From Halorubrum californiense DSM 19288 (GTDB taxonomy: Archaea > Halobacteriota > Halobacteria > Halobacteriales > Haloferacaceae), in contig NZ_AOJK01000077.1 of the NCBI RefSeq assembly GCF_000336875.1, positions 1,555-38,670 on the forward strand: a stretch of 37,116 nt of DNA, given 5' to 3'. The position numbers were made by a program, and so were the translations under genes. Each line of letters begins with the position of its first letter. Position 1 is the stretch's first letter. The notes beneath the pieces were generated by a model, which made no database searches, was not told where the DNA came from, and worked only from the letters and a program-made list of their open reading frames with translations. Positions 475 through 37,091 of this stretch are shown here, one piece after another.

Positions 475-1167
475 TCATTCCGCGTCGGTGACCGGCGCGG
501 AGCGGTCGTCGCGCTCCGTGGACGGCTCTCCGTCGGACGCTTCCTCGCCGGACGCGTTCTCGCCGAACGCGGCGTCGACCTGCGCGAACGTCTCCGCCTC
601 CGCGCCGGAGTTGTCGACGACGACGTGGTCGCTCGCCACCTCGTCGAACAGCCCCTTGAAGTGGAGGTGGATCTCGAAGTCGGCGTCGCTGATCCCGTCG
701 CGGCGTTCGATCCGGCGCTCGACGACGGTCTCGTCGCAGGCGACCTCGACGAGGTCGAACTCGGCGGCGGCCGCGGCGGCCGTCTCGCGGGCGTCCGCCC
801 GGAATCGCGCGTCCGCGAACGTCGCGTCGAGGACGACGGCGCCGCCGGCGTCGACGTCCTCGCGGGCGCGAGTGAGGAGTTCGGCGTAGACGGCCTCGGT
901 CTCCGCGTCGGTGTACTCGGGGTCGTCGAACAGCTCCTTGCGTATCACGTCGGTCCGCCGGATCCGCCCGTCGACGTGGTCGGCGATCCGCTCGGCGACA
1001 GTCGTCTTGCCGACGCCGGGAAGCCCGCAGACGACGACAAGCCGGCCGGCCGATCCGTCGTCGTCGTCGACCGAGCTCGACCGCGCCGGAGCGAGCGAAT
1101 CCGCCGCGCCACCGTTCGAAGTCGGCGATTCGGCCCGGTCCGGCGCTCGACCGCCTCGGTCACTCAT
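475..1167 (-). CDS. P-loop kinase-like ATPase (AAA_33/zeta-like fold)
   Basis: This 230-residue protein begins with a disordered acidic and Ser-rich segment of about 40 residues. A nucleotide-binding domain follows, starting at LVVVCGLPGVGKTTVAERI (Walker A GLPGVGKT). A second conserved strand reads GGAVVLDATFADARFR, and VEVACDETVVERRIERR resembles the lid region of small kinases related to gluconate kinase, polynucleotide kinase and zeta toxins. The acidic tail of about 40 residues is probably disordered. The substrate cannot be read from the sequence. A GGAGG lies about 12 nt upstream of the ATG. It is a single-gene unit; neighbouring aIF-1A has its own promoter. Confidence 0.75.
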   Translation of the reverse strand: MSDRGGRAPDRAESPTSNGGAADSLAPARSSSVDDDDGSAGRLVVVCGLPGVGKTTVAERIADHVDGRIRRTDVIRKELFDDPEYTDAETEAVYAELLTRAREDVDAGGAVVLDATFADARFRADARETAAAAAAEFDLVEVACDETVVERRIERRDGISDADFEIHLHFKGLFDEVASDHVVVDNSGAEAETFAQVDAAFGENASGEEASDGEPSTERDDRSAPVTDAE

Positions 1168-1320
1168 CTACCGATATCCTCCGTGGTGAAGTAAAAGAAA
1201 CTTCGCATCGGGTCACGGATCTCCCGACTTTCTGATACCTGCCACGATGATCCGGGAATATCTTCTTTCCGACCGATGGTACAAGCGCCTCTCTCTGTCG
1301 TTTAGTTTCGGTCGCAAGAA

Positions 1321-1356
1321 AGTGGGTTGGGGCGGATTTGAACCGTCGGCCTCCTC
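1321..1356 (+). repeat. attL: 36-bp copy of the tRNA-Val 3' end
   Basis: Positions 1321-1356 match 6849-6884 at 35 of 36 bases; the mismatch is T1346 against C6874 in the T-stem. The repeat covers the acceptor 3' strand, T-arm, variable loop and part of the anticodon stem of tRNA-Val. It is the distal attachment site left by tRNA-targeted integration. Just inside it, a perfect hairpin (CCCGCC TGC GGCGGG, 1370-1384) may be an integrase arm or accessory site. Confidence 0.9.
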
Positions 1357-1464
1357 AGCGCCTCTCGTGCCCGCCTGCGGCGGGTTCGGCGCTCCAGACG
1401 AGTCGAGATCTGCGGTATAACGCCGCGCACGTACCACACAGGGTCGGGCGATTCGGAAACACCG

Positions 1465-2466
1465 ATGACCCGACAAATCGAACCCGAACGCGCAGTAGAA
1501 CGGTATCTAAACGAACGCCGGGGGGACATTTCCGAGTCCACCTATTACAACCACTCATCTCTGCTGTCACAGTTCATTGAGTGGTGTGAGGCCCAAGGTC
1601 TGGATTACGTCAACGAACTCGACGGGTTCCATATCTCCGACTTCAAGATCCACCGCCGGGACGAGGACGGCATCAACAAAGTCACACTCTACAACCAGAT
1701 GACTGTCCTCCGCGTTTTTCTCCGATGGTGTGAATCACGCAGTCTGGTGGAAGGCCTCGCGGAGAACATCCTAATGCCGGTTCCCGAAGACGACTCTCGG
1801 GACACGATGATCGACTCGGAGACGGCGGCACAGATCCTCCAGTACCTCCAGAAGTACGAACACGGGACGTTGAAACATACGGTGTTCTCGCTCCTGTGGG
1901 ACACGGGGTTCCGTGTAGGAACTCTCCGAGCGATCGATCTCGAAGACTACCACTTAGAGGAACAGTTCATTGAGGTGGAACATCGTGCAGAGACTGGTAC
2001 ACCGCTCAAGAACAAGCACGGAGCCGAACGTGAAGTGAACCTCCACGAGTGGGTGTGCGACGTGATCGACGACTACGTCGAGATGTACAGGCACGACGTA
2101 ACCGATGACCACGGACGAAAACCGCTGATCACTACGGAACAAGGTCGTCCGGTTCGATCGAACATACGCGGCCACATCAACTCGATGACGCGACCCTGCG
2201 TGTACGCGGACAGCTGTCCCCACGATAGGGATCCGGATAGTTGCGAAGCCTCACAGCGACGGGACGCGGCGGCACGGTGTCCTGGTTCAGTTCCGCCTCA
2301 CGCAATTCGTCGTTCTGCGATCACGGCATGGCTCAACGACGGCCACACGAAGGAACTCCTCTCCGATAGGATGAACGTCTCGGTAAAGACGCTGGAGAAG
2401 CACTACGATGCTCGGACGGAGAGTGAAAAGCGGGAACTTCGCCGCGAAGAGTTTGGGATGGAGTAG
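1465..2466 (+). CDS. int: Tyrosine recombinase (phage/XerCD-type integrase)
   Basis: The 333-residue protein has an N-terminal SAM-like core-binding domain (about residues 5-105) and a C-terminal catalytic domain. Visible catalytic elements are R150 in DTGFRVGTLRAID, K184 in PLKNKHGAERE, H279xxR282 in PHAIRRSAITAWL and the nucleophile Y314 in LEKHYDAR. An insertion at residues 245-272 carries four cysteines (C245, C251, C260, C272), probably a zinc knuckle, as seen in many haloarchaeal integrases. It should excise and integrate the element between the 36-bp att sites at tRNA-Val. The gene is intact and not split by integration, unlike SSV-type integrases. A GGTATAACG box at about 1412-1420 is a possible promoter. 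Confidence 0.93.
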   Translation: MTRQIEPERAVERYLNERRGDISESTYYNHSSLLSQFIEWCEAQGLDYVNELDGFHISDFKIHRRDEDGINKVTLYNQMTVLRVFLRWCESRSLVEGLAENILMPVPEDDSRDTMIDSETAAQILQYLQKYEHGTLKHTVFSLLWDTGFRVGTLRAIDLEDYHLEEQFIEVEHRAETGTPLKNKHGAEREVNLHEWVCDVIDDYVEMYRHDVTDDHGRKPLITTEQGRPVRSNIRGHINSMTRPCVYADSCPHDRDPDSCEASQRRDAAARCPGSVPPHAIRRSAITAWLNDGHTKELLSDRMNVSVKTLEKHYDARTESEKRELRREEFGME

Positions 2467-2470
2467 CAAC

Positions 2471-2480
2471 TCCGTTTTTT
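2471..2480 (+). terminator. T-run after the integrase gene
   Basis: Six T residues (2475-2480) lie 8 nt after the integrase stop codon, a typical archaeal intrinsic termination signal without an obvious hairpin. Confidence 0.4.
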
Positions 2481-2738
2481 CAACTACATCTTGCCCGCAA
2501 CTCCTGGGGTTCGAGTGCCCAAGACCATGCTCTATCTCTTTGATCATTTCACGGCTACATCGACGCAGTCTGCGATTTTCGGCACCTATTTAACCCTGGA
2601 CGTTGTCTTTAGGGTGAAGGCATACTCTCGCGGGATTCTCCATCCGCCGAGTCGGAACTACGCTATTTTTTTCGACAGCTTCGACGCATTGAGGGGAATA
2701 GAACGAACCACAGAGAGACTTCTACCGCAACCAGAAAT

Positions 2739-4664
2739 ATGACTACAGATTCAATCTCGAACAGCGATAGCTATGACGAACCGACTGATTCTCCGAACAG
2801 GGTTACTACCAACGAAGCGCGTGATCGTCTCGAAGAGACGCTATTCTCGGCGCTCCAAGCCGGAGAGAATACGCTCATCGATGCGCCGACTTCGGTCGGT
2901 AAGACCTACCAAATTGCGACGACACGATGGCGTGACTATCCCGAAATCACAGGCGGTGAGCCGGTCATCCATATCCACCAGACGAAGAAGGCGAGGGAGG
3001 ACGCTGTCGAAAAAAGTCGGGAGGAACCCGGTGTGGAATATCGCGTGCTACGTGGTCGGACTGATGCGTGTCCTGTAGCCGCAGGAAACTGCGATGGCGA
3101 GTTGACCGCTCCAAACGGTCGCACTCCCTCGAAGTGGTTCGACTGGATGTGTAACGTGCGTAATATCACATTCCAGAAAGCTCACCACCAATTGGCGCGA
3201 CATTGCGATCTACCCTGCGGAGAGGATTGCGACGCTGTCACTCAATGGTGGGGACTTTCAGACAGCGACGATGAACCGGGTTACGACGTACTACATACGA
3301 CGTCGAATTTCGCTCACGTTGACGACCTCATTGAGGGGGCGAATGTGGTCTTCGATGAACGTCCGGAGTTTGGGTTCTCATTCAAAAGCGACGAAAGAGA
3401 GCAGTTTCAGCAGGCGACGACCAACCTACTTGATCATCGTTCCGATGTAACCCGTGCGATGATTGATCTCAAGAACGCCGCTGTTCGTGATCATCCTGAA
3501 TTGAAAGGAGAGCTAAGAGAACACTTCGAAGACGAGGTCAGTAAGGAGTGGCTATTCCGACGTGAAGAAACCCACCGATTGGCTCCCGCTATCGGGCGTG
3601 CTATCCTCAGTTCGCAGGAAGTCTGCGCAGAACGCTACCATGGACGAGACGGCCGCATTGAGGTTGTGCTGGAAGGAGTAAGCGGTGAGATTCGACATAT
3701 CCAGCATACTCCAGACCTTTCCCAAGCCCGCTGTGTCATCGGCCTTGATGCGTTCCCCTCAGAGACCCGGTGGGAGATCAACACCGTTGACAACCTCTCA
3801 CGAGCGGCAGTGTTGCCTCTCGCCGACCGTAATTGGTGGCGACGAAACGAGCGAGGGCTGGAAATCAAGCAACTCGGAGAGGCAACTCGGTCATATACGC
3901 AGGGTTGGGGAGAGGGTGCCGGCGAAACACGAGGAGAAGCGGTTATCCAGAAAATACGGCAACTACACGGCGAGGCATTCCGTTCGTGTATCTCTCCAAG
4001 TAGTGTTGAACAGGACGTTCGACAGATGATGGCTGACGCAGGTATCGAGAAGCCGAAGACGATGCACTACGGTGAACAGAAAAGTCGCAACGACTTCTCG
4101 AACGAGGAGATCGGGTTGCTCGTTGGATGTATCGATCCCGGTGACGAAAATATTCTTGATCTGCTTGCCCTCCGCGAAATGGACGCAAAACCAAGACGAA
4201 TGATAACGGAGTCAGGACAACGAAAACGAGCGACCGGTCGTGACTTCGTTGGCCCAGACGCAGAGGTAGCAAGAGAGATTCTGGCTTCAGTCCGGGAGAA
4301 TAATCTCGCACAAGCCGCGGGGAGATACGCACGAAATCCTGACGATCCTGACTCCGGAGCTACTGTATATGTGTGGTCGGACGCACTTCCGAGGATGCTC
4401 GTTGATGAGGAGATCAGGACAAAGTACCGTTCAGCTACCGGCAAGCAAGCAGGGTTCGTACAAGTACTGGAGAACTCGTCAGGATGTACTGCGAAGCGGA
4501 TCGCTACTGAGACAGACAGCAACAAGTCCTACGTTATTAATTGGCTCAATAAGATGGAGGGGCAGAACAATGTCACGAAGTCTGTGGGAACTGGGCATCA
4601 GGGAGCGACTGAGTGGGAGTGGTGTGGTGGAGACTTCGAGAGATGTGTGATGTTCAATCCCTGA
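2739..4664 (+). CDS. SF2 helicase-like protein with XPD-like cysteine set and C-terminal HTH
   Basis: This 641-residue protein is the largest in the element and probably its replication protein. Walker A is DAPTSVGKT (48-56). The Walker B/DEAH equivalent is VVFDERPEF (204-211, core D206-E207), and motif VI is QAAGRYAR (525-532). Between Walker A and B lie six cysteines (C111, C118, C138, C156, C160, C164). They are followed by HTTSNFAHVDDLIEGA in the place where XPD/Rad3 helicases have their NH motif, so an Fe-S cluster is likely by analogy. Residues about 570-615 (SGCTAKRIATETDSNKSYV) look like a winged helix. The core D-E-R-P instead of D-E-A-H is unusual. A CGCATTGAG iteron copy lies inside the gene at 3654-3662. 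Function is inferred from motifs only. Confidence 0.7.
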   Translation: MTTDSISNSDSYDEPTDSPNRVTTNEARDRLEETLFSALQAGENTLIDAPTSVGKTYQIATTRWRDYPEITGGEPVIHIHQTKKAREDAVEKSREEPGVEYRVLRGRTDACPVAAGNCDGELTAPNGRTPSKWFDWMCNVRNITFQKAHHQLARHCDLPCGEDCDAVTQWWGLSDSDDEPGYDVLHTTSNFAHVDDLIEGANVVFDERPEFGFSFKSDEREQFQQATTNLLDHRSDVTRAMIDLKNAAVRDHPELKGELREHFEDEVSKEWLFRREETHRLAPAIGRAILSSQEVCAERYHGRDGRIEVVLEGVSGEIRHIQHTPDLSQARCVIGLDAFPSETRWEINTVDNLSRAAVLPLADRNWWRRNERGLEIKQLGEATRSYTQGWGEGAGETRGEAVIQKIRQLHGEAFRSCISPSSVEQDVRQMMADAGIEKPKTMHYGEQKSRNDFSNEEIGLLVGCIDPGDENILDLLALREMDAKPRRMITESGQRKRATGRDFVGPDAEVAREILASVRENNLAQAAGRYARNPDDPDSGATVYVWSDALPRMLVDEEIRTKYRSATGKQAGFVQVLENSSGCTAKRIATETDSNKSYVINWLNKMEGQNNVTKSVGTGHQGATEWEWCGGDFERCVMFNP

Positions 4665-4752
4665 AGTCATTGGGTTCACCACATAAGGAACCATATGTGA
4701 CCTACCCAACGACCTTCGGAATTATCGATTGAGGAGTAGGAACGCATTGAGT

Positions 4753-4780
4753 CGGGATTCGTCTCCGCAGGAGACTCCCG
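4753..4780. repeat. Hairpin downstream of the helicase gene
   Basis: CGGGA (4753-4757) pairs with TCCCG (4776-4780), and GTCTCC (4761-4766) pairs with GGAGAC (4770-4775) around a GCA loop, giving 11 pairs with one 3-nt bulge. It begins 1 nt after an iteron. Confidence 0.7.
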
Positions 4781-4823
4781 AACACGGAGTAGAATAAGTC
4801 GCTGGGTTACTCGTTCGATATTC

Positions 4824-4864
4824 CAACGCATTGAGCGGGGGAGTTCTTCCCCCTCAATGCATTG
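4824..4864. repeat. Long hairpin made of two inverted iterons
   Basis: CAACGCATTGAG (4824-4835) pairs with CTCAATGCATTG (4853-4864) with one mismatch. GGGGGA continues against TCCCC, with a single bulged C4836, closing on a GTTC loop. The stem is about 17 bp. Confidence 0.7.
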
Positions 4865-5152
4865 TTCCTTGGGGGAAGCAGTAACCGATTCATGTAGCTG
4901 GTTCGTTCCGCGATGAATCCCCGGTGGTACGTCATAGAGTCATGTGAGAGGAAGACAAGTAACTGTCGCGGCCATCCATACTCCCCGTTTCCGAGAACTC
5001 AATGCGGGGAATATCGACCAGCTCAGTAACTCAAATTCCAGACTCCAGACGAGAAATTTCTCGGAGAGACTTACATATATATGTAGCGAGCGCACATGGC
5101 AATGTTTCAACTGGAGGTTCGATCCATCGAGTCGTGTTGCTTTCCCGCCGCC

Positions 5153-5368
5153 TCAATGCGATGGTCGTTCAGGATCACACACGACCTCTCGAAGTTCCGC
5201 GTAGAGATCGGGATGATGTTCCCGCAGTATCTCCACGTCAGTCGTCATCTCAGCCTCAATCTTACGACGAATGCGAGAGATAGCCTGATACCGAAGGCCA
5301 TCGTCCGACTCACTCTCTCCCTTAATGAGTTCCCGCTCTCGATCTGTCAACAGAGCGCGTCGTGCCAT
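5153..5368 (-). CDS. Small conserved haloarchaeal protein of unknown function
   Basis: The 71-residue product starts MARRALLTDRERELIKGE and continues with a charged helical stretch (SRIRRKIEAEMTTDVEILREHHPDLYAELREVV). I recognise this pattern from small proteins found on haloarchaeal plasmids, proviruses and integrated elements. No function is established to my knowledge; a DNA-binding or regulatory role is only a guess from size and charge. The ATG is supported by a TTTATT (AATAAA on the minus strand) box about 26 nt upstream. Its stop codon overlaps an iteron copy at 5152-5160. It is transcribed away from the zinc-ribbon gene at 5533, with nested palindromes between them. Confidence 0.75.
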   Translation of the reverse strand: MARRALLTDRERELIKGESESDDGLRYQAISRIRRKIEAEMTTDVEILREHHPDLYAELREVVCDPERPSH

Positions 5369-5410
5369 ATCGCTCTTACATGCGCGCGCTGTTTATTGAT
5401 GTCCGTATTC

Positions 5411-5439
5411 GGGAACGTTCCCAAATATGGGAAATATTT
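5411..5439. promoter_or_regulatory. Nested palindromes between divergent genes (operator candidate)
   Basis: GGGAACGTTCCC (5411-5422) is a perfect 12-bp palindrome. It overlaps TTCCCA-AATA-TGGGAA (5419-5434), which overlaps AAATAT-GGGAA-ATATTT (5423-5439). The block lies between the start regions of the genes at 5368 (minus) and 5533 (plus), so a shared regulator binding here is plausible. Confidence 0.55.
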
Positions 5440-5491
5440 CGCATCTTTTCATCAAACTATAATATACGCTTTGACCCAATAAAGGGCAATA

Positions 5492-5499
5492 TTTATATC
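5492..5499 (+). promoter_or_regulatory. TATA-like box for the 5533 zinc-ribbon gene
   Basis: TTTATATC is 34 nt upstream of the ATG at 5533. It predicts a short leader of about 10-15 nt. Confidence 0.4.
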
Positions 5500-5532
5500 A
5501 TATGCCTATAACAGTTCGTGTGTTGGTTTGAT

Positions 5533-5769
5533 ATGTCATGGTACTGCCCCGAATGTGGGACTGAGGTTACAAGCGGGAAGGAATGTCATGAATGTGGTTA
5601 TGTCGATGAAGGGCCTGAAGAAGAAGAAGATACAGACACATCCTCTGGCGGTTTCGTATCAAAATTAAAAACTGGCGGCAAAATAATGATATATCTTACA
5701 GTTGGAATGACTTTGTTAATGATTTTAGTTACTTTGGTGGCCTTTGGGAATCTATTTCCATTTATTTAA
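5533..5769 (+). CDS. Zinc-ribbon membrane protein of the element
   Basis: The 78-residue protein begins MSWYCPECGTEV and has two CxxC knuckles (C5/C8 and, after a short loop, CHECGYV), making a rubredoxin-like zinc ribbon. An acidic linker (about residues 28-42) and one transmembrane helix near the C-terminus (IMIYLTVGMTLLMILVTLVA) follow. I prefer the ATG at 5533 over an upstream in-frame codon because the zinc ribbon starts there. Codon use is strongly AT-rich, unlike the host genes, which points to recent acquisition. The function is unknown. Many short zinc-ribbon plus single-helix proteins occur in haloarchaeal genomes and elements. Confidence 0.75.
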   Translation: MSWYCPECGTEVTSGKECHECGYVDEGPEEEEDTDTSSGGFVSKLKTGGKIMIYLTVGMTLLMILVTLVAFGNLFPFI

Positions 5770-6020
5770 ATTTACTACAGAAATCAAATGTGATTTATAA
5801 GTTAGATGAATACAGATTTGTTCCAATATATCCGTCTCTTTGTGTTCTATACATAATTAATTTTGATATTAAATTAAATATTTGATCGATTGGTATATTT
5901 ATTTGGTTTTCAAACTTTCTAACTAAATTCTAATATGAACTGAAATTAATAGCACGATACGTCTCACTATGTTATTAATATGCGTTAGTTTTAATTGGAT
6001 ACATCACATTATTTATTTAC
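5770..6020. other. AT-rich spacer without a recognisable gene
   Basis: About 250 bases of very AT-rich sequence with no convincing ORF. A TTTTAATT box at 5989-5996 is about 28 nt before the ATG at 6021 and may be its promoter. Confidence 0.4.
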
Positions 6021-6341
6021 ATGGCTACGTGCCCTGATTGCGGAAATGTAGTAGACCCATCAAAAGAGTTCTGTAAAAACTGTGGAGCTTCAATCGAAGA
6101 TGTTGAAGAATTAGAGTCTGATCAAATATTTGTTCATATTAAAAATGAAGAAAAGAAGCTAACATGCAACTCGGTGAAATATAGTCAACAAGGAACGTGG
6201 ACAAAGATACGGATGCTGGACGGAAGTATCCGGTTGTATCCACAAGAACGGATCGAGTACGTAGAAGCTCCGCGCGGACTGGATAAACTTACATCAGTTA
6301 ATGTAATTAAAAATACACCCAAAATGAATGTACAAAAATAA
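6021..6341 (+). CDS. Zinc-ribbon protein of unknown function
   Basis: The 106-residue protein opens with MATCPDCGNVVDPSKEFCKNCG, giving two CxxC pairs (C4/C7 and C18/C21) that should bind one zinc. The remaining 80 residues have no transmembrane helix and look like a small beta-rich domain (IFVHIKNEEKKLTCNSV; WTKIRMLDGSIRLYPQERIE). Base composition is AT-rich like its neighbour at 5533, and both belong to the integrated element. A nucleic-acid or protein-binding role is possible, but nothing in the sequence specifies it. The ATG is the first in-frame start and puts the zinc ribbon at the N-terminus, as usual for this class. Confidence 0.7.
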   Translation: MATCPDCGNVVDPSKEFCKNCGASIEDVEELESDQIFVHIKNEEKKLTCNSVKYSQQGTWTKIRMLDGSIRLYPQERIEYVEAPRGLDKLTSVNVIKNTPKMNVQK

Positions 6342-6406
6342 ACAGGTAGCTATCCTGATACTGTTTTTACAATTGAATATCTAAAATATATCACACAGTT
6401 GTACTA

Positions 6407-6535
6407 TTAATTTGATTTCCGGGATTTAAATAGTGGCTCGCTTCCAGATTCGTCCGTTTTGCTGAATCGGTGGTGATTGATGTAGTCCTGTACAATCTGA
6501 TTGACCCTCGGCTTGAGAGAGACAACCCCCCACCT
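6407..6535 (-). pseudogene. Remnant of a second tyrosine integrase
   Basis: On the minus strand this stretch reads RWGVVSLKPRVNQIVQDYI followed by NHHRFSKTDESGSEPLF, then a stop. It aligns with residues 189-221 of the element's own integrase (REVNLHEWVCDVIDDYVEMY, then RHDVTDDHGRKPLI), the segment following the catalytic lysine. A TAA interrupts the frame just upstream, and neither the catalytic arginine nor the HxxR/Tyr region is present. It is therefore a decayed fragment from a different integrase, close to the tRNA end. It suggests an earlier integration at the same tRNA. Confidence 0.65.
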
Positions 6536-6830
6536 GATAAGTTATGTTGCGAGAATCGCAGTAATCGGTGGGACGACGAAATAGAGATATAAGTGGTTTA
6601 TATAGAGACTGGCTCCAGATGCGTTTTGTTGAATTTGTTCAGTTGGCGGTAGAGCGATCGTCGGCAATTTCCGTGAATGCGCAGTTACCGGCAGTTTATT
6701 ATCACTTCCGTGTCTCCTTAAGCGTGAATCGCCGTACGGCCCTGTGGTGAGACGTGAAGCGTTGCTGCGCAGTTCAATTGAGAACGCTGGAAGGAACAAG
6801 CCCCGGTACGGCGCGGGGACAGTCTCCTTG
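6536..6830. other. Gene-free stretch inside the element
   Basis: No credible gene is seen. Bases 6609-6640 resemble part of the integrase remnant (TTCARCAAAACG followed by ATCTGGA and GCCA on the minus strand), possibly a second decayed copy. The similarity is short. Confidence 0.35.
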
Positions 6831-6848
6831 AGAAACGCGCGTAGCGCG
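6831..6848 (-). terminator. Hairpin and T-rich tail after tRNA-Val
   Basis: On the minus strand CGCGC-TAC-GCGCG (6836-6848) is followed by TTTCTC. It lies 2 nt past the tRNA 3' end, in element-derived sequence, and may terminate the tRNA transcript. Confidence 0.4.
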
Positions 6849-6884
6849 AGTGGGTTGGGGCGGATTTGAACCGCCGGCCTCCTC
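6849..6884. repeat. attR: 36-bp repeat inside tRNA-Val
   Basis: This is the second copy of the 36-bp direct repeat described at 1321-1356. It lies within the functional tRNA gene, so integration restored the tRNA 3' half. Confidence 0.9.
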
Positions 6885-6925
6885 CATGTCAAGGAGGTGT
6901 CATAACCGGACTAGACTACCAACCC
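6851..6925 (-). tRNA. tRNA-Val (anticodon GAC)
   Basis: The minus strand folds into a complete tRNA. The acceptor stem GGGTTGG pairs with CCAACCC, and a D-arm with GTCTAGTCCGG follows. The anticodon stem CCTCC/GGAGG closes the loop TTGACAT (anticodon GAC), and the T-arm is GGCGG-TTCAAAT-CCGCC with discriminator A. CCA is not encoded. A TCAATTATG box lies about 40 nt upstream (about 6964-6973). Its 3' half is the attachment site of the element. Confidence 0.95.
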
Positions 6926-7097
6926 GCAGGGGCTTACTGACGCATCTCGTCGTTTCCGGGGGACATAATTGAACCTTTCGTTTCGGGGTTCGGGACGGGG
7001 CGCGTGACCGCCCCTCGATCGGGCGACGGCAGGCCTCCGAAGTCGACGGCGCGACGGTTTTCGACCGTTTTTACCCGCTCGCCGACAGTCCGTGCGT

Positions 7098-29283: not shown

Positions 29284-29628
29284 ATGGTTCTCGGAGCTAT
29301 CGTCTCGTTCGTCGTCGCGCTATTGGTCGGTGGGGTGGGGATCTACGTCAGCGGCCGCCTCGTCGCGGGCGTCGACGACTACTCGCACGCGGTGGTGACT
29401 GCGCTGCTCGGCGCCGTCGCGTGGGCCATCGGGTCGCTGATCCCGGTGATCGGGTCCGTGGTCGCGCTGGTCGCGTGGGTGTGGGTCATCAAGTGGCGCT
29501 ACCCCGGCGGCTGGAAGGACGCGGCGATCATGGGACTCGTCGCGTGGGCGGCGACCCTACTCGTCATCGCCGTCCTGAACGGCGTTCTCGACCTGAACAT
29601 CGGCGCGTTCGGCATTTCCGGCGTCTGA
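29284..29628 (+). CDS. Small polytopic membrane protein
   Basis: The 114-residue protein has three to four transmembrane helices: GAIVSFVVALLVGGVGIYV, HAVVTALLGAVAWAIGSLIP, VIGSVVALVAWVWVIKWRY, and AAIMGLVAWAATLLVIAVL. It is common in haloarchaea without known function. A CTTATATCC box about 28 nt upstream supports the ATG. No partner gene is evident. Confidence 0.75.
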   Translation: MVLGAIVSFVVALLVGGVGIYVSGRLVAGVDDYSHAVVTALLGAVAWAIGSLIPVIGSVVALVAWVWVIKWRYPGGWKDAAIMGLVAWAATLLVIAVLNGVLDLNIGAFGISGV

Positions 29629-29736
29629 CGCGGCCCGTTCCGGTCTGTTCTGCTGTTCCGTTCCGTCGGCCGTCCGAACCGCTGCCCGACGGTCCGCGGT
29701 TCAACCGTTCCGTCGAGATATCTCCGACGCGACTCG

Positions 29737-30090
29737 TCACTTCTCTTCGACGAGTTCGCCGTACTCGTTGGTCTCGTAGGGCCCTTTTCGGCTGTCACTC
29801 CCGGTACGCTCCGAGCGCGCCTGTCGCGATTCGGTGGCGTTCGAACCGGCTCCCGCCGACACCGAACTCTCCTTCTGTGACGACGCGCCGGCGGCGTGGT
29901 CGGCGTCGTCCGCCTCCGCCAGCGCCGAGAGGAAGCCTCCGGCAAATCCGACGATGTACGGGAGCGCCTTCAGCGCCACCAGTCCAAGGACGATCACGGA
30001 CGCGATTGCGATGAAAAACAGTAGAAACAGGAAGCCGAAGATGGCCGTCAGTATATCCGAAAAAATGGAGAGCGGGACCAGATGAGTCAC
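29737..30090 (-). CDS. Membrane protein with long charged tail, next to the ESCRT-like cluster
   Basis: The 117-residue protein has an N-terminal hydrophobic region of two helices (LTAIFGFLFLLFFIAIASVI and VLGLVALKALPYIVGFAGGF). A polar, probably disordered cytoplasmic tail of about 60 residues follows, ending YETNEYGELVEEK. It starts with GTG and has its own TTTAATATTC box about 30 nt upstream, 60 bp past the stop codon of the coiled-coil gene at 30151. It could serve as membrane anchor or adaptor for the neighbouring AAA/coiled-coil system, but that link rests on position only. Confidence 0.6.
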   Translation of the reverse strand: MTHLVPLSIFSDILTAIFGFLFLLFFIAIASVIVLGLVALKALPYIVGFAGGFLSALAEADDADHAAGASSQKESSVSAGAGSNATESRQARSERTGSDSRKGPYETNEYGELVEEK

Positions 30091-30150: not shown

Positions 30151-30804
30151 CTACGACAGCCGGAGGTCGGACACGTCGTCGTCGTCCAGATCGCCGTCGA
30201 GGTCGTCGAAAACCGCCTCGGGGTCGAGCGACTCGTCCTCCGTCGTCCGCTCTCGTTCGAACTCGGCGTCCCACTCGTCGCGGAGCTGCGAGTTGCCGTG
30301 AAGGCGGTCGGTCGACGCCGAGAAGGAGTCGACCACGTCGCGGGCGGCGACGCCGGCGGTGTCGAGCCGCTGGGTCATCTCCTCGATGGTCAGCTTCTCT
30401 TGCGAGAACATCTCGACCAGCTCTTCGCGGTCGAGTTCCATGAGACGCTCCCAGTACCGGTCGTCGCGGAGCTCTCGCATCTCGTAGACGTTGAGGAAGT
30501 TAGACACCGTCTGGGACATCTGATCCACGACGTCGAGTTTCCCCTCGACCGTTTCGAGGCGGTCGTTGACGGCCTCGGCCTCGCGGAGGGCGGTCTCCGC
30601 CGCGTCCTCGTTTCCCGCCTCGCGGGCGTCCATGTACTGCTGTTTCAGGTTCTCGTGTTTCTCCTTGAGTCGGTCGCGGTCGGTCGCGAGCTGCTCGCGT
30701 TTCGCGTCGAGTTCGACCTGCTTATCGCGGTGTTCGGACTCGTCGAGTTCGAGCGGATGAGTCGTGTCGTCGCCGAAGAGGAGCGTCGAGATTCGATCGA
30801 TCAT
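30151..30804 (-). CDS. Coiled-coil protein, ESCRT-III/Snf7-like candidate 1
   Basis: The 217-residue protein is almost entirely helical. A short hydrophobic N-terminus (MIDRISTLLFG) leads into a long charged coiled coil (about 25-95: ELDAKREQLATDRDRLKEKH). Shorter helices (100-165) and an acidic tail ending DDDVSDLRLS follow. Size, N-terminal amphipathic piece, helical hairpin and acidic tail match ESCRT-III (CHMP/Snf7) subunits, and residues 99-161 align by eye with residues 90-152 of the paralogue at 32815. PspA/Vipp1, from the same superfamily, is the main alternative. It lies 41 bp downstream of the Vps4-like ATPase gene in the same direction, so the two are probably co-transcribed. ATG 30804 is preferred to the much longer frame, which overlaps the ATPase gene. 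Confidence 0.55.
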   Translation of the reverse strand: MIDRISTLLFGDDTTHPLELDESEHRDKQVELDAKREQLATDRDRLKEKHENLKQQYMDAREAGNEDAAETALREAEAVNDRLETVEGKLDVVDQMSQTVSNFLNVYEMRELRDDRYWERLMELDREELVEMFSQEKLTIEEMTQRLDTAGVAARDVVDSFSASTDRLHGNSQLRDEWDAEFERERTTEDESLDPEAVFDDLDGDLDDDDVSDLRLS

Positions 30805-30845
30805 GTGGATACGAACGTGGGGGGAATTTGTAGTTGTTGGGTGTG

Positions 30846-32174
30846 TTACTGCTCGATTCGAGCCGACGGACCCGTGCCGTACTGCGCGTTCCACTCGTCG
30901 TACTCGGATATCTCCGCCGCCGACAGCGACGCGCTCGTCTGATCGAACGCCGTCTCCACGTCCTCCGGCGTGATGGCGTCGATCGTGAGATCGTAATCGC
31001 GGGCTCCGCCGAGCCCGCTGTCCGCGACGGAGACGAGGTCGGGATTCGACCGACGCACCATCGCGTCCACCGAGCGTCGACACAGCGCCTCGATATCGCT
31101 CCCGGTGAACTGTCGCTCCACGCAGGCGGCGGCGATCGCGGTCGCGGGCGAGGCGGCGCCCGCCGCGTCGACCCCGCTCGGGGCGAACGCCGTCGGCCGC
31201 GAGTCGGCGAACTCGACCCCGCCGCGAACGCTGTGGATCCGGACGACCTCCTCGGCGGCGTCGACGTCCGGCAGCGGGATGAGAAGCCGCTCGGGGAAGC
31301 GTCGCCGAACCGCGTTGTCGAGGTCGGCCGGTTTATTCGTCGCGCCGAGGACCATCACGAAGTCGTCTTCCCCTTTATCGATCCCGTCCAGTTCCGACAG
31401 GAGCGTGTTCAGCACCCGCCGAGACGTCTGGTCGGAGTTGTCGTCGCGCGACTGCGTCAGCGCGTCGATTTCGTCGAGAAACACGACCGACGGACTCATC
31501 TCCGCCGCGAGGTCGAACAGCGCGGTGATCTGTTTCGACGACTCTCCGAAGTACTTCGACAGGAGGCCGCCCAGCTTCACGTCGAAGAACGTCGCATCGA
31601 GCGACCCAGCGACCGCCGACGCCAACAGCGTCTTTCCGGTCCCCGGGGGCCCGAACATGAGGACCCGGTCGGTCGCGGCGACCGCCGAGGGAGTCCCTTC
31701 GACCGCACCGAGCGCGATCGCTCGCTTCAGCCGGTCTTGGACCGATTCCAGGCCGCCGATATCATCCCAGGTCACGTCGGTCTCCGAGACGAACGACTCG
31801 ACGCGGCCCTTGAAGTCCTCGTCGTCTCCGGAACCGCCCGAACCGCCGCCTGCGCCACCCCTGCCGCCCGAACCGCCGCCCGCGCCACCCCTGCCGCCCG
31901 ACCCACCCGCGCCGGCGCTCCCGCCGTCGTCGTCCGCCGCACCGGGATCGGTGCCGTCGGCGGCCATCGAGGCCGCACGCAGCAGCCGCTCGATGCGGCC
32001 GCTGTAGTCGCTGTTCGCCTCGACGTCTTGGAGCTGTTCGAGCCGATCGGCGGCCTCGTGGTACCCCTTCGCGGCGGCGTCGAGGTTCCCGGCCTTCCTC
32101 GCCGTCTCGGCCTTCGAAAGCAACTCTTCGTACTGGTTCCTGAGGATGTCGCGTTTGTATCCGTCTACGTTCAT
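30846..32174 (-). CDS. Vps4-like AAA ATPase with N-terminal MIT-like domain
   Basis: The 442-residue protein has an N-terminal helical domain (about 5-70) resembling the MIT domain of Vps4: YEELLSKAETARKAGNLDAA, then GYHEAADRLEQL. A Gly-rich linker (about 85-116) precedes one AAA domain. Motifs are WDDIGGLESVQDRLKRAI, Walker A GPPGTGKT (175-182), pore loop SKYFGES (206-212), Walker B VFLDEID (231-237), sensor GATNKPADLD and arginine fingers in AVRRRFPERLLIPLPD. The C-terminal SLSAAEISEYDEWNAQYG (417-433) is the closing helix of the Vps4/katanin/spastin clade. Vps4 disassembles ESCRT-III filaments through the MIT domain. It sits between two coiled-coil genes that could be its substrates. Other AAA clades are less likely because of the C-terminal helix. 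Confidence 0.82.
   Translation of the reverse strand: MNVDGYKRDILRNQYEELLSKAETARKAGNLDAAAKGYHEAADRLEQLQDVEANSDYSGRIERLLRAASMAADGTDPGAADDDGGSAGAGGSGGRGGAGGGSGGRGGAGGGSGGSGDDEDFKGRVESFVSETDVTWDDIGGLESVQDRLKRAIALGAVEGTPSAVAATDRVLMFGPPGTGKTLLASAVAGSLDATFFDVKLGGLLSKYFGESSKQITALFDLAAEMSPSVVFLDEIDALTQSRDDNSDQTSRRVLNTLLSELDGIDKGEDDFVMVLGATNKPADLDNAVRRRFPERLLIPLPDVDAAEEVVRIHSVRGGVEFADSRPTAFAPSGVDAAGAASPATAIAAACVERQFTGSDIEALCRRSVDAMVRRSNPDLVSVADSGLGGARDYDLTIDAITPEDVETAFDQTSASLSAAEISEYDEWNAQYGTGPSARIEQ
31841..31900. repeat. 30-bp tandem duplication in the ATPase linker
   Basis: 31841-31870 and 31871-31900 are identical except for one base. They encode repeated Gly-Ser-Gly-Gly-Arg-Gly-Gly-Ala-type decapeptides of the linker, likely to vary in copy number by slippage. 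Confidence 0.8.
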
Positions 32175-32253
32175 GGGGTTTGGTGGTGAGTTCGGTCGGG
32201 AAATCGTCTCGATGCCGTCGGTGCCGTGCGGTCGCGTTCGTTCCGCCGCCGGG

Positions 32254-32697
32254 TCATGCGGCCTCGTCCGTTTCGGGACCGTACACGGCCGCGACGACGC
32301 CGTCGGCGACGGTTTCGAGTTCGACCGCGCTCTCGTCGGGCAGTTCCTCTTCGGCGGCGCACACGACGGCCTGTCGGAGCAGTCTGCGGTCGCTCTCGGA
32401 GACCGTCGGGCTGTCGGCACGGAACTCCGGGCCGGACGCGAACTCGAGCGTTCGAGTGAGCACGTACTGGAAGAGCAGCGAGCGGTACTCGTGTCGCGTC
32501 CGCTCGTAGCGACGCAGGAGCGACTCCCGTTCGCGGGAGCGGTCGTCTCCGCTCGGCGTCGCCGGGTTCGCCGTCGTCCGGGACTGCCGGTCGTACTCCC
32601 GGTCCAGCCGTTCGAGGGGCTCGATCCGGTCGACCAGCTCCTCTCGGAGCAGCTCGCGTGCGCCTTCGAAGTCGAGTGTGTTCCGCTGTCGGGTCAT
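32254..32697 (-). CDS. Small helical protein of unknown function in the ESCRT-like cluster
   Basis: The 147-residue protein is predicted largely helical and charged, with EGARELLREELVDRIEPLER near the start and RYERTRHEYRSLLFQYVLTR in the middle. A compact C-terminal part follows (RRLLRQAVVCAAEEELPDES). It contains no transmembrane helix or known catalytic motif. It lies between the coiled-coil gene (117 bp upstream) and the ATPase gene (79 bp downstream), all leftward, which suggests a joint role. I do not recognise the family. Confidence 0.55.
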   Translation of the reverse strand: MTRQRNTLDFEGARELLREELVDRIEPLERLDREYDRQSRTTANPATPSGDDRSRERESLLRRYERTRHEYRSLLFQYVLTRTLEFASGPEFRADSPTVSESDRRLLRQAVVCAAEEELPDESAVELETVADGVVAAVYGPETDEAA

Positions 32698-32814
32698 GAT
32701 CGGTGTGATTTGAGTGATCGAGCGGCGCGGACCGAACGGCCGGCGCGTCCGGCTGACCGAGGCGCGTCCCGTCTGACCGGGGCGGCGGAGCGGTCCCGTC
32801 GCTGTCGTCGCCGG

Positions 32815-33423
32815 CTACATGTCGCTAAGCGAGAACGACGACTCGTCGATGTCGTCCTCGCTGACCTTGTCTGCCAGCGAGAAGTCGCTCACGTCGTTCC
32901 CCTGCTCGAACGCCTGGATGACGTCCTCGACGTCGTCGTCGACTTGGCCGCCGCCCGAGCCGGTCACGGCGGTCAGCGTCTCGTCGATCGTGTTCGCGAC
33001 CTCCTCCATCTGGGCGAGTTCCTGGTTCTGTCCCAGCACGTCGCGCTTGACGTCCTCGCGGAACGACTGTAGCTGCTCTTGATCCATCTCGCGCAGCATC
33101 GAGTCGCTCCGGGAGTTCAGGCGACTCTTCGCGTTAGCCAGCGTCTGGATCGTGGTGAACTCCTTGAGCATGGCTTGGTACTCGGCCTGCTGCTGCTCGT
33201 AGTTCTGCTTGATCGCGGAGGCCTCGCTCTTCAGCCGGTTCCGCTTGGGGCCGGCCGCGTCCGCCGCCTCCTTCGCCTTGCTCAGGAACTTCTGGTCGAG
33301 GCGGTTGAGGTCGTTCTCCTTGACCTTCATGTCGGTCTTGATACTCTCGGCCTCGAGGTCGAGGTCGTTTTTCGAGTACGCGTCGAGTCCGCTCGGGTCG
33401 TCGCTTCTGAACCAGTCGAACAT
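32815..33423 (-). CDS. Coiled-coil protein, ESCRT-III/Snf7-like candidate 2
   Basis: The 202-residue protein opens with the amphipathic MFDWFRSDDP. A long helical hairpin spans about 22-90 (SIKTDMKVKENDLNRLDQKF; SEASAIKQNYEQQQAEYQAM), then helices at 90-155 (SMLREMDQEQLQSFREDVKR; ELAQMEEVANTIDETLTAV), a GSGGG break and an acidic tail. The tail contains DVSDFSL (177-183) and DESSFSL (193-199). This is the layout of ESCRT-III subunits: basic helical core, hinge and acidic tail with MIT-interacting motifs. The tail motif recurs in the second coiled-coil protein. It is the first gene of the leftward set and starts beside the divergent regulatory region. No database search has been run. Confidence 0.6.
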   Translation of the reverse strand: MFDWFRSDDPSGLDAYSKNDLDLEAESIKTDMKVKENDLNRLDQKFLSKAKEAADAAGPKRNRLKSEASAIKQNYEQQQAEYQAMLKEFTTIQTLANAKSRLNSRSDSMLREMDQEQLQSFREDVKRDVLGQNQELAQMEEVANTIDETLTAVTGSGGGQVDDDVEDVIQAFEQGNDVSDFSLADKVSEDDIDESSFSLSDM

Positions 33424-33743: not shown

Positions 33744-34250
33744 GTGACCGCTGACGACACCTACCTCGTCGTCGTCGATTACGAGGCGGACACCGAGCGG
33801 AAGCGCGCGGAGTACCTCCTCGACAACTGGGACGAGGGCAGCGTCGAGTCGGTTCGCGGACTGACTCGACTGGTCTCTGGGACCGACATTCACGAGCTGT
33901 ACGACGCGCTCGCCGCCAAGGTCCCCGAAGACCAGATCGAGACGTACGATCTCACGCCCGTGAACAGCGAGGCCAGCACCAGCGACGAGCGGCTCGACAT
34001 CAGGACCCAGACGGATCCCGAGCGGGTGGAGTGGGCCGTCGAGTCGGTGCTCAACAAGCGCAAGGCCGTCGAGGACCCCGAGCAAGACGACACCTACGCG
34101 GTGTACACGAAGAAGGGGCGAGCCACGGTCCGGTACGACGTCGTCCCGCGAGACGACGGATCGACCCTGGAGATCCGGATCGAGGGGTACGGCGAGGCGA
34201 CCGAGTTCCTTCGCGACTTCTTCGAGGAGGAGCTCGGGTACATGCTGTGA
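33744..34250 (+). CDS. 168-residue alpha/beta protein of unknown function
   Basis: The GTG-initiated protein seems to have two small alpha/beta domains. The N-terminal half follows a beta-alpha-beta-alpha-beta order (TYLVVVDYEADTER, KRAEYLLDNW, GSVESVRGLTRLVSG, DIHELYDALAAKVPE, QIETYDL), reminiscent of a ferredoxin-like or Cas2/VapD-type fold; this resemblance is weak and by eye. The C-terminal half reads YAVYTKKGRATVRYDVVPRD and ends in FLRDFFEEELGYML. It is the first rightward gene, 48 bp upstream of the large coiled-coil gene, and diverges from the ESCRT-like set. No catalytic residues are identifiable. Confidence 0.6.
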   Translation: MTADDTYLVVVDYEADTERKRAEYLLDNWDEGSVESVRGLTRLVSGTDIHELYDALAAKVPEDQIETYDLTPVNSEASTSDERLDIRTQTDPERVEWAVESVLNKRKAVEDPEQDDTYAVYTKKGRATVRYDVVPRDDGSTLEIRIEGYGEATEFLRDFFEEELGYML

Positions 34251-34297
34251 CGGACGGAGAACGCGACTGACACATCTCGACAACACGAGGCGATACG

Positions 34298-36352
34298 ATG
34301 GGATTCCACGACGAACTTGACGACGTTCTCAGACCGGCGAACCGCGTGCTCGACGGCGACCTCGTCGACTTGGAGCGGATGTCTCCGACGCGCCGAGAAC
34401 GGCTCTACGAAGAGATCCGCGAGAGCGAGGAGCGGTTCGAATCTGAACTGCTCCGGGAGTACCGACGGAAACTGGACGACGTGACCACGAGCGAGGTGCG
34501 GTCTCAGCTCGTGACGGCGCGGCTGTTCCTCCACGTCGCGTCGCATCGAGACGACCGCGGCGACGTCATCGATCCGAACGCCTTCGAGGAGGACGAACGG
34601 CGGGCGGTCGTCGAGTTCGATCGGTACCGCGCGTTCGACGTGTCGAGTACGGAGGACCTCCAGCGACGGATCCGCGAGAAGGACGACGATGTCTACGAGT
34701 TCGTGGTCGAAGAAGTCACCTCGCAGACGGACGACCGGAGTTCCGTGCTTGAGGGGCGAGACAACCGGATCCGGACCGCGGTCATGGACTACCTCAACGA
34801 CCGCTATCAGGAGCGGATCGATCGCTCCGAGGAGGCCGTCTCGCTGTACATCCAGCACCACGGCCTCCCGAACGTCATCGAGGGGATCGAGAACGCCGTC
34901 GAGGCGACCGCCGAAGGGGCCGAACGACGACAGGAGGTCGAGGAGGCGGTCCGGACGCAGCTCGACGACCTCTCGGAGCGGATACACGCGTCGCTGCGCG
35001 ACCAAGAGCGCGCCATCAGGGGGGACATCGCCGGCATTCAGGGGGAGGTCGCCGCGATGGAGGGCGACAAAGGCGCCGCGGTCGACACCGAGAGGCTGGA
35101 GTCTAAGCTCGACGAGGTCGCGACCGAGGTCGAGGCGGTCCGCGAGGAGCGCCGGGCCGACGTGGCGGCGCTCGACGAGGCAATCGACGGCCTCGCCGAC
35201 AAGCGGGAGACCCTCGACGACGCCTTGGAAGAGCTCACCGAGGCCGGTCGGGAGGCGACCAGGCGGGCGGCCGACGAGGCGGCCGAGGGCGTCGCCGACG
35301 ACGCGGAAGAGATCGTCTCACAGGAGCTACAACGGCTCCGGGACCGCCGGGAGGAGCTCGACGGCGAACTCTCTCGGCTCTCGCGCGAGCGAGAACGGCT
35401 CGAAGCCGCGGGGGACCGGCTCGAAACGGAACACGAGGTGCTGTCGGAGCGCGTCGACCGCGTCTCCGCGTCCCTGCCCGCCGAGTCGGACGCCGACGCG
35501 GGAGGCGACGGCGTGGTACCGGCCCGGATCGCCCGGCTGTACGAGGTCGACTTCGTCTCCCGGTTCGACGAGTCGGTCCGAGAGGCGCACTCGATCACGC
35601 TGCCGAGCGGCGAGGCGTTCGAGCCGCCGTCGGAGTTCGCGCGTCGGGCACACGAGGCCGGCGACGAGCGCGAACGGATGGCGTCGCTGCTCGACGAGCA
35701 GGGTGCGAGCGACGACGTCGACGTCGACCACTATCCGCTGCGGCGACGCTCGCGCTACACGGTCGTCACGAGCAGCCGGTTCGGCCTCGTCAGGGACGCC
35801 GAACTGGTCATCGAAGCGACCGTTCACAGCAACCTCGAGGCGTACGCCATCAACGGCTTCGACGCGAGACCCGCCGGACTCGACGACCTCCTCGATGTCA
35901 TCAACCGCGTCACCGAACGAGCCAACACCCGCGGCGTTCCGCACCTGATCGCGGCCGCCTCCACGACCGGATGGACCGATCGGGTCCGCCGGTTGGTCAC
36001 CGAGTCGGAGTTCTCTCGAACCCGCCTCGGCACCGACGTGAGTCTCTGTCTCGTCGACGTGCGTACCGGTGAACTCTTCTACGACCGGAGCGACGACGTG
36101 GTTCACGCGAACCGCGAACTGTTCGAGCGGGCGGTACACGTCGAGCGCGTCGACGCCTGCGAGCGCCACATCCGCGAGGAGTACGTCGAGGACCCGATGA
36201 CCGACACCGTCCGGCTGAGCGCCGTGGCCTCGGAACTCGACGCCCCAGAACACGTCGTCGCGAGCGCGTTCGACCGGATCGAAGACGCCGGCGACGGCAG
36301 CCGAGGCTATCACGACGAACACGGCCCATACCTCGTCGCAAACGGCGGTTGA
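34298..36352 (+). CDS. 684-residue protein with central coiled coil and C-terminal winged helix
   Basis: Three regions can be seen. Residues 1-200 are helical and charged (MGFHDELDDVLRPANRVL start). Residues about 205-400 form a long coiled coil (EVEEAVRTQLDDLSERIHAS; QELQRLRDRREELDGELSRL). Residues 410-600 form an alpha/beta domain (RYTVVTSSRFGLVRDAELVI; GVPHLIAAASTTGWTDRVRR; VSLCLVDVRTGELFYDRS), followed by a probable winged helix (DTVRLSAVASELDAPEHVVA). No transmembrane segment is visible. The layout, long coiled coil plus ligand or nucleic-acid domain, suggests a scaffold or sensor. It is probably co-transcribed with the 168-residue protein gene 48 bp upstream. I do not recognise the family. 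Confidence 0.65.
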   Translation: MGFHDELDDVLRPANRVLDGDLVDLERMSPTRRERLYEEIRESEERFESELLREYRRKLDDVTTSEVRSQLVTARLFLHVASHRDDRGDVIDPNAFEEDERRAVVEFDRYRAFDVSSTEDLQRRIREKDDDVYEFVVEEVTSQTDDRSSVLEGRDNRIRTAVMDYLNDRYQERIDRSEEAVSLYIQHHGLPNVIEGIENAVEATAEGAERRQEVEEAVRTQLDDLSERIHASLRDQERAIRGDIAGIQGEVAAMEGDKGAAVDTERLESKLDEVATEVEAVREERRADVAALDEAIDGLADKRETLDDALEELTEAGREATRRAADEAAEGVADDAEEIVSQELQRLRDRREELDGELSRLSRERERLEAAGDRLETEHEVLSERVDRVSASLPAESDADAGGDGVVPARIARLYEVDFVSRFDESVREAHSITLPSGEAFEPPSEFARRAHEAGDERERMASLLDEQGASDDVDVDHYPLRRRSRYTVVTSSRFGLVRDAELVIEATVHSNLEAYAINGFDARPAGLDDLLDVINRVTERANTRGVPHLIAAASTTGWTDRVRRLVTESEFSRTRLGTDVSLCLVDVRTGELFYDRSDDVVHANRELFERAVHVERVDACERHIREEYVEDPMTDTVRLSAVASELDAPEHVVASAFDRIEDAGDGSRGYHDEHGPYLVANGG

Positions 36353-36378: not shown

Positions 36379-37091
36379 TCAGCGGTCCGGCGACAGGGCC
36401 CGTGGCGGCACGAGCGGCGACTCCCTGAGCGCGCGCACGAGTCGCTCGCCGTCGAACAGCCGCATCGCGTCGTACGCGGCGGCGGCCGACCGCGCCGGAT
36501 CGGTGAACGACGAACTCGTCACGACGGCGCCGGCGTCGGCGTCGAACTGCGAAACGGCTCCCTCGGTCTGTTGGACCGTCGGCCGACCGACGGTGTTGCC
36601 CGCCGCGAACTGCTTCACTTGGATCACCTCGGTCCGGCCGTCGGCGAACTGTACCACGACGTCGACGCCGCCGTCGTCGCTGCGTCGGGTGCGAGCGACG
36701 TCACCGATATCGGCGGCCGACCGCCACAGGTCCGCCACGAGGTCCTCGAACTCCTCGGGCGTCGGCTCGATCAGGTCGGGGGCTCCCCACGCGACCTCGT
36801 CCGCCGCCTCGACGCGCGATTCGAGCCGAGCGATCCCGCGCTCGTCGGTCGCCGCGAACGCCTTGCGCGCGTCGCGCTTCAGCCCGTCCAGTTCGGCGTA
36901 CGTCGGAAGCCGGAACGAGGCGACCGCCGCGGTGAGGCGATCGACGCGCCGGGCGAGCGGGAGCGCCTCCGCGAGCGCCTCGACGCTCGCCACGCTGCGG
37001 TCGAGCGCTCGGTCGTACGACCCCGACGCGGCCGAGACGGCCGCCTCCCGGGCCGGGTCAGCCACGCTCTCGGGAGCCGCCTCGTACCGCT
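36379..37091 (-). CDS. Mrr-type restriction endonuclease-like protein (5' end lost at contig edge)
   Basis: The visible C-terminal part has an Mrr-like nuclease core: EEFEDLVADLWRSAADIGDV, then TRRSDDGGVDVVVQFADGR with the catalytic aspartate, then EVIQVKQFAAGNTVGRPTVQ with the QxK motif. AGAVVTSSSFTDPARSAAAA is the following strand and helix. A helical N-terminal region of at least 95 residues precedes it. A GTG at 37065 could start it, but the frame stays open to the end of genomic sequence at 37091, so the true start is probably missing. Mrr nucleases cut modified or invading DNA. It converges on the coiled-coil gene with a 26-bp gap. Confidence 0.75.

Follow-up and report, generated by a model that had tools for sequence, protein, structure and literature searches.

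An ESCRT-type gene set and its rightward partners

The window, a stretch of 37,116 nucleotides from Halorubrum californiense DSM 19288, carries four leftward ORFs between positions 30151 and 33423, here called P1, P2, P3 and P4, all of them present where an initial annotation had placed them, and two rightward genes beside them (Table 1). P1–P4 are genuine ESCRT-type membrane-remodelling genes of a kind already catalogued computationally in some haloarchaea, and a set of this kind is rare within the genus Halorubrum. The initial annotation had called them the minimal parts list of an ESCRT-III system, a list that was incomplete, having overlooked the two conserved partner genes at 33744–36352.

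Table 1. Features of the ESCRT locus and its surroundings in the window.
Feature	Position	Strand	Evidence
Left edge of gained block	29629..29640	.	DNA similarity to five other Halorubrum ends at 29628-29638
117-aa membrane protein, first gene inside block	29737..30090	-	homologue adjoins P1 in G133; absent from five empty sites
P1, predicted ESCRT-III-fold protein, 217 aa	30151..30804	-	Snf7 match, AF2 hairpin, Foldseek, homologues in ESCRT loci
P2, Vps4-type AAA ATPase, 442 aa: MIT-like domain, Gly-rich linker, AAA core, Vps4/katanin C-terminal helix	30846..32174	-	
P3, shortened P4 paralogue, 147 aa	32254..32697	-	BLASTP to P4 E 5e-8; homologue in G133
P4, ESCRT-III candidate, 202 aa, acidic tail	32815..33423	-	AF2 helices, profile match to P1 family, gene context
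168-aa protein, probable arCOG08177	33744..34250	+	paired with 684-aa gene in nearly all loci; alignment; published description
684-aa protein, probable arCOG09748	34298..36352	+	spread across genomes; alignment
Mrr-type restriction endonuclease domain protein, inside block	36379..37065	-	Pfam Mrr_cat E 5.4e-24; also in G133

P1 and P4 as ESCRT-III proteins

P1 matched the Pfam Snf7 profile with an E-value of 2e-4 (21.5 bits, below the cut-off of 27.3) and the PspA profile more weakly (E = 0.51). When we scanned 32 genomes with Snf7, no protein scored above the cut-off and the P4 genes were not marked; the best match in both the window's own genome and that of a close relative, Halorubrum sp. 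GN11_10-6_MGM (G133), was P1. Because neither the P1 nor the P4 alignment found an ESCRT-III match in profile searches of the PDB, we turned to structure prediction. The AF2 model of P1 has two long helices (residues 22–62 and 66–112, pLDDT ~90–97) and thus the predicted ESCRT-III arrangement, in which shorter helices follow a long alpha1–alpha2 helical hairpin core. In a Foldseek search of 350,542 chains with this model, the top 18 were all ESCRT-III, CdvB, PspA or Vipp1 structures, headed by Asgard ESCRT-IIIB and Snf7, with weak E-values (0.083 at best); the hairpin of CHMP4B superimposed at 1.1 Å across 75 columns. Homologues of P1 are also present in the ESCRT loci of Halomicrobium and Halarchaeum. 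P1 is thus a well-supported member of the ESCRT-III superfamily.

For P4, the second protein of the proposed ESCRT-III pair, membership is less strongly supported than for P1. Its AF2 helices (18–55, 58–103, 108–112 and 115–154) are predicted to form a helical hairpin in the same layout as P1, and a Foldseek search with the model returned no clear family. Profile comparison matched P4 to the P1 family (E = 9.5e-6, probability 83%), a score that coiled-coil composition could inflate, and in those haloarchaeal ESCRT loci that we examined a P4-type gene adjoins the ATPase. On the predicted helix layout, the profile match and this gene context, P4 is probably an ESCRT-III protein as well. The small helical protein previously noted between P2 and P4 is there, and proves to be a paralogue of P4, namely P3; Pfam searches with P3 and P4 returned nothing convincing. 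The acidic tails attributed to the coiled-coil proteins were confirmed (net −17 in 67 amino acids and net −14 in 52 amino acids). Their supposed amphipathic N-termini were not confirmed, being hydrophobic but with a hydrophobic moment not above that of shuffled sequences for the window's proteins.

A Vps4-type ATPase distinct from Cdc48 and PAN

The AAA core of P2 is unambiguous (Pfam AAA, E = 1.3e-38), and its two ends are where the initial annotation had seen Vps4-like features. The N-terminal 75 amino acids matched Pfam MIT with an E-value of 0.02, below the curated cut-off, and weak MIT matches occurred in 6 of 14 P2 homologues, including the window's P2. A profile of the family's N-terminal region found the solved MIT structures of archaeal Vps4/CdvC proteins (4lcb, E = 0.008; 2w2u, E = 0.013; 2v6y, E = 0.034) behind designed TPR proteins, which share a short motif with them and outscored them, so the N-terminal domain is called MIT-like with that qualification. 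At the other end, the best PDB match of the C-terminal 119 amino acids was katanin p60 (E = 0.0045), in agreement with the proposed C-terminal helix of the Vps4 clade, and the corresponding region of a methanogen homologue matched katanin at E = 1.6e-17; the match of P2 to the Pfam Vps4_C oligomerisation domain was below cut-off (E = 0.24).

Cdc48 tops the PDB list for P2 because the scores of its two domains add up. The best single-domain match was Vps4 (5uie, 162 bits), compared with 135 bits for Cdc48 D2. In a tree built without eukaryotic and TACK Vps4 sequences, P2 grouped with ATPases of other ESCRT loci, apart from the Cdc48-like and PAN-like proteins of its own genome, with moderate support (84/88); its closest relatives were the ATPases of Halarchaeum and Halomicrobium, and it was sister to methanogen ATPases adjoining the same partner genes (100/99). 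Single-domain scores, the C-terminus and the tree together largely rule out a Cdc48 or PAN identity for P2. With the ATPase set apart from that clade and the ESCRT-III hairpin predicted, the ESCRT-III/Vps4 interpretation first put forward from the sequence is supported.

Conserved partner genes

Searches with the 684-amino-acid protein matched 11 of 194 haloarchaea and, across the phylum, 19 of 295 genomes, including a few short and weak matches. In nearly all of the loci examined the 168-amino-acid gene precedes it, and in most of them, in haloarchaea and methanogens alike, an ATPase or ESCRT-III gene lies close to the pair. The partner genes are conserved across the Halobacteriota. Protein kinase and PP2C phosphatase genes lie near several of these loci. 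A Pfam search with the 168-amino-acid family returned no match.

The marker genes of the 'Main' archaeal ESCRT systems are arCOG08177, with Cas2-like and TBP-fold domains, and arCOG09748, with helical, coiled-coil, globular and winged-helix domains (Makarova et al. 2024, PMC10936438). By comparing size and architecture, order, partners and spread with this published description, rather than by arCOG profiles, we identify the 168- and 684-amino-acid proteins as the probable arCOG08177 and arCOG09748. The Halorubrum locus thus resembles the 'Main' clade (PMC10936438) in its Vps4-type ATPase, its ESCRT-III protein and the two probably corresponding partner genes, and also in the kinase and PP2C genes near other haloarchaeal loci; it differs in having an additional ESCRT-III protein of the P1 family and the short P3, and in having been gained as a block with E1, E2 and JAB genes within. 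The Halo_FHA system (PMC10936438) is likewise haloarchaeal and shares the partner genes at some of its loci, and a 217-amino-acid family encoded immediately beyond the window's right end may be the FHA protein, for which a Pfam search returned no FHA match. In the tree, however, the window's ATPase falls with those of Halomicrobium, Halarchaeum and methanogens, apart from the ATPases of Halonotius and Haloquadratum.

A gained block of about 30 kb

Five related Halorubrum genomes lack everything rightward of ~29,640. They keep the left flank up to that point and the right flank as in G133, and all between is absent; at the empty site of one genome (G038), only ~0.2 kb separates the flanks. In G133 these genes occur in unchanged order, spread over three contigs, and combining this genome with that of the window gives a block size of ~30 kb. 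Because these two genomes are close relatives, the block represents one gain event and not two. We rejected a viral origin of the ESCRT locus, since no related loci were found in viral contigs; the phage matches of P2, among those listed, were FtsH-like or generic AAA proteins.

Beyond the window the block continues with genes for a PQQ-repeat protein, a ThiF/E1-like protein (E = 1e-34), a HEAT-repeat protein, a JAB protein, an E2 and a kinase with PQQ repeats, and at its far end in G133 come coiled-coil proteins and a second AAA protein. The unexpected part of the block, mostly beyond the window, is the set of ubiquitin-like enzymes gained together with the ESCRT genes, and this is the part worth following. 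E1, E2 and JAB are of bacterial ubiquitin-like type and match defence-associated models in PADLOC (E = 2e-34, 5e-20 and 6e-24, respectively). The JAB protein contains the sequence HKHPGEMNRLSDGD, which we take to fit the JAMM metal-site pattern. Protein and Pfam profile searches found the E2 in only 2 of 194 haloarchaea, the window's genome and G133; the former copy has one N and a duplicated stretch, probably an assembly fault, whereas the G133 copy reads through.

How the machine might work

Our preferred reading, to which we give a probability of about 0.8, is that the locus encodes an archaeal ESCRT-III/Vps4 machine of 'Main' type that remodels membranes and was gained horizontally by a Halorubrum lineage in the ~30-kb block. 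From the parts present, their homology, the conserved partners and the shared insertion, we infer the polymerisation, adaptor and scission steps that it might carry out. P1 and P4 would assemble into a polymer on the cytoplasmic side of the cell membrane, with the short P3 perhaps capping or tuning it, and the 684- and 168-amino-acid partners would serve as an adaptor, positioning the polymer or loading cargo. Docked through its MIT domain, the Vps4-like hexamer would extract ESCRT-III subunits from the polymer, which would drive budding and scission away from the cytoplasm.

As the output of such a machine, division is less likely than the formation of vesicles, the sorting of proteins or the repair of membranes, because the genome contains six tubulin/FtsZ-family genes and sister species do without the block; the earlier suggestion that the set does not serve cytokinesis fits these genes. 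In Haloferax, vesicle formation uses the GTPase ArvA, so vesicles do not in general require ESCRT. Halorubrum lacusprofundi, too, makes vesicles without ESCRT (PMC10936438), and given both examples vesicles are not assured as the output.

The machine might also work with the co-gained E1, E2 and JAB, a ubiquitin-like tag marking cargo or ESCRT parts, in a coupling whose origin would lie in bacterial-type conjugation enzymes, separate from that in Asgard archaea and eukaryotes. We regard this as a speculative and unlikely proposal; the sole tie between the two systems in the Halorubrum lineage is their shared inheritance in one block. In the main survey of archaeal ESCRT systems, the pairing of ESCRT with ubiquitin-like enzymes is reported for Asgard archaea alone (PMC10936438). 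The Asgard system likewise encodes ESCRT-III/Vps4 with E1, E2 and JAB-type genes, whereas the Halorubrum enzymes match bacterial defence-type models and no UEV, ESCRT-I or ubiquitin gene was seen. If the co-gained enzymes do act with ESCRT, they would represent a second origin for a link so far described in Asgard archaea and eukaryotes.

Alternative readings

The main rival to a role in vesicles, sorting or repair is defence: the block would be chiefly an island against viruses or plasmids, with ESCRT resealing or budding the membrane during infection and the Mrr nuclease, the kinase and E1/E2/JAB as further effectors. The Mrr-type nuclease within the block, the PADLOC matches of the conjugation enzymes, a kinase resembling PD-T4-6-type kinases (PADLOC) and the patchy, horizontally gained distribution all point that way. 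The ESCRT core, however, gave just generic AAA matches and one weak coiled-coil match in PADLOC, methanogens and other haloarchaea conserve it in the absence of these defence-type genes, and neither a CD-NTase nor an effector gene was seen, so that we consider defence as the primary role possible but unlikely. Much less probable is a membrane-stress system of the PspA/Vipp1 kind in place of ESCRT proper: PspA and Vipp1 appear among the Foldseek matches of P1 as members of the same superfamily, but are outranked by Asgard ESCRT-IIIB, Snf7 and CHMP structures, just as the PspA profile is outscored by Snf7, and the set encodes a Vps4-type ATPase.

Cell division in the manner of Sulfolobus Cdv is more improbable still. 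The Sulfolobales system has the same ESCRT-III/Vps4 core, its Vps4 (CdvC) bearing an MIT domain, and some ESCRT-III relatives divide cells, but its partner genes differ, no CdvA came to light in an analysis without a CdvA profile, the window's genome has its tubulin/FtsZ-family genes, and the set is absent from most sister species and hence dispensable; the same has been argued for archaea with FtsZ (PMC10936438). Equally improbable is a protein unfoldase of Cdc48/PAN type whose coiled-coil partners are unrelated, a reading suggested by the resemblance of the P2 AAA core to Cdc48 and PAN on general scores, in view of the single-domain scores favouring Vps4/katanin, the separate position in the tree, the MIT-like domain and the predicted ESCRT-III fold of P1.

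In the literature that we searched, haloarchaeal ESCRT systems did not figure in any experiment. Some haloarchaea are genetically tractable, and because the set is compact and sister species manage without it, the role of a euryarchaeal ESCRT can be tested directly. Elsewhere in the window, an rRNA operon was rejected as the identity of the low-GC stretch at 1–7 kb, and the window's repeats resemble coding-frame GC bias.

Ubiquitin-like enzyme genes within the gained block

Beyond the right end of the window, the gained block that carries the ESCRT genes also contains genes for an E1/ThiF-like protein, a JAB protein, an E2 and a HEAT-repeat protein. The E2 was found in only 2 of 194 haloarchaea. 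The small ORF beside it is 93% identical to the copy in Halorubrum sp. GN11_10-6_MGM (G133), and its 45-aa product is smaller than an ordinary ubiquitin fold requires.

Coordinates of features in the window, the gained block and other ESCRT loci (L063, locus on contig G000:C77; L161, locus on G133:C20)
Feature	Coordinates	Position
E1/ThiF-like, JAB, E2 and HEAT-repeat genes	L063:3265-8193	G000:C77, right of window end
45-aa ORF	L063:8216-8353	directly upstream of E2
SIMPL (DUF541) domain protein	L063:4806-5534	gained block
Mrr-type nuclease domain protein	window 36379-37065	gained block
Second AAA protein, 680 aa	L161:12141-14183	far end of gained block
SPFH/Band 7 protein	L074:3070-4641	genome G062, adjoining ESCRT genes
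Halarchaeum ESCRT locus	L126:24909-40042	plasmid
Low-GC stretch	window 1001-7000
tRNA-Val gene	window 6850-6925	near end of low-GC stretch

Other genes and loci

A likely counterpart of the 680-aa AAA protein lies on another contig of the H. californiense genome (G000:C78). SPFH proteins are named for the Meth_adaptin systems (Makarova et al., 2024; PMC10936438), and an SPFH/Band 7 protein adjoins the ESCRT genes of G062; the Halarchaeum locus contains HEAT-repeat/kinase fusions together with PP2C. The low-GC stretch of the window (40–58% GC), for which an rRNA operon was ruled out, is possibly an integrated element.
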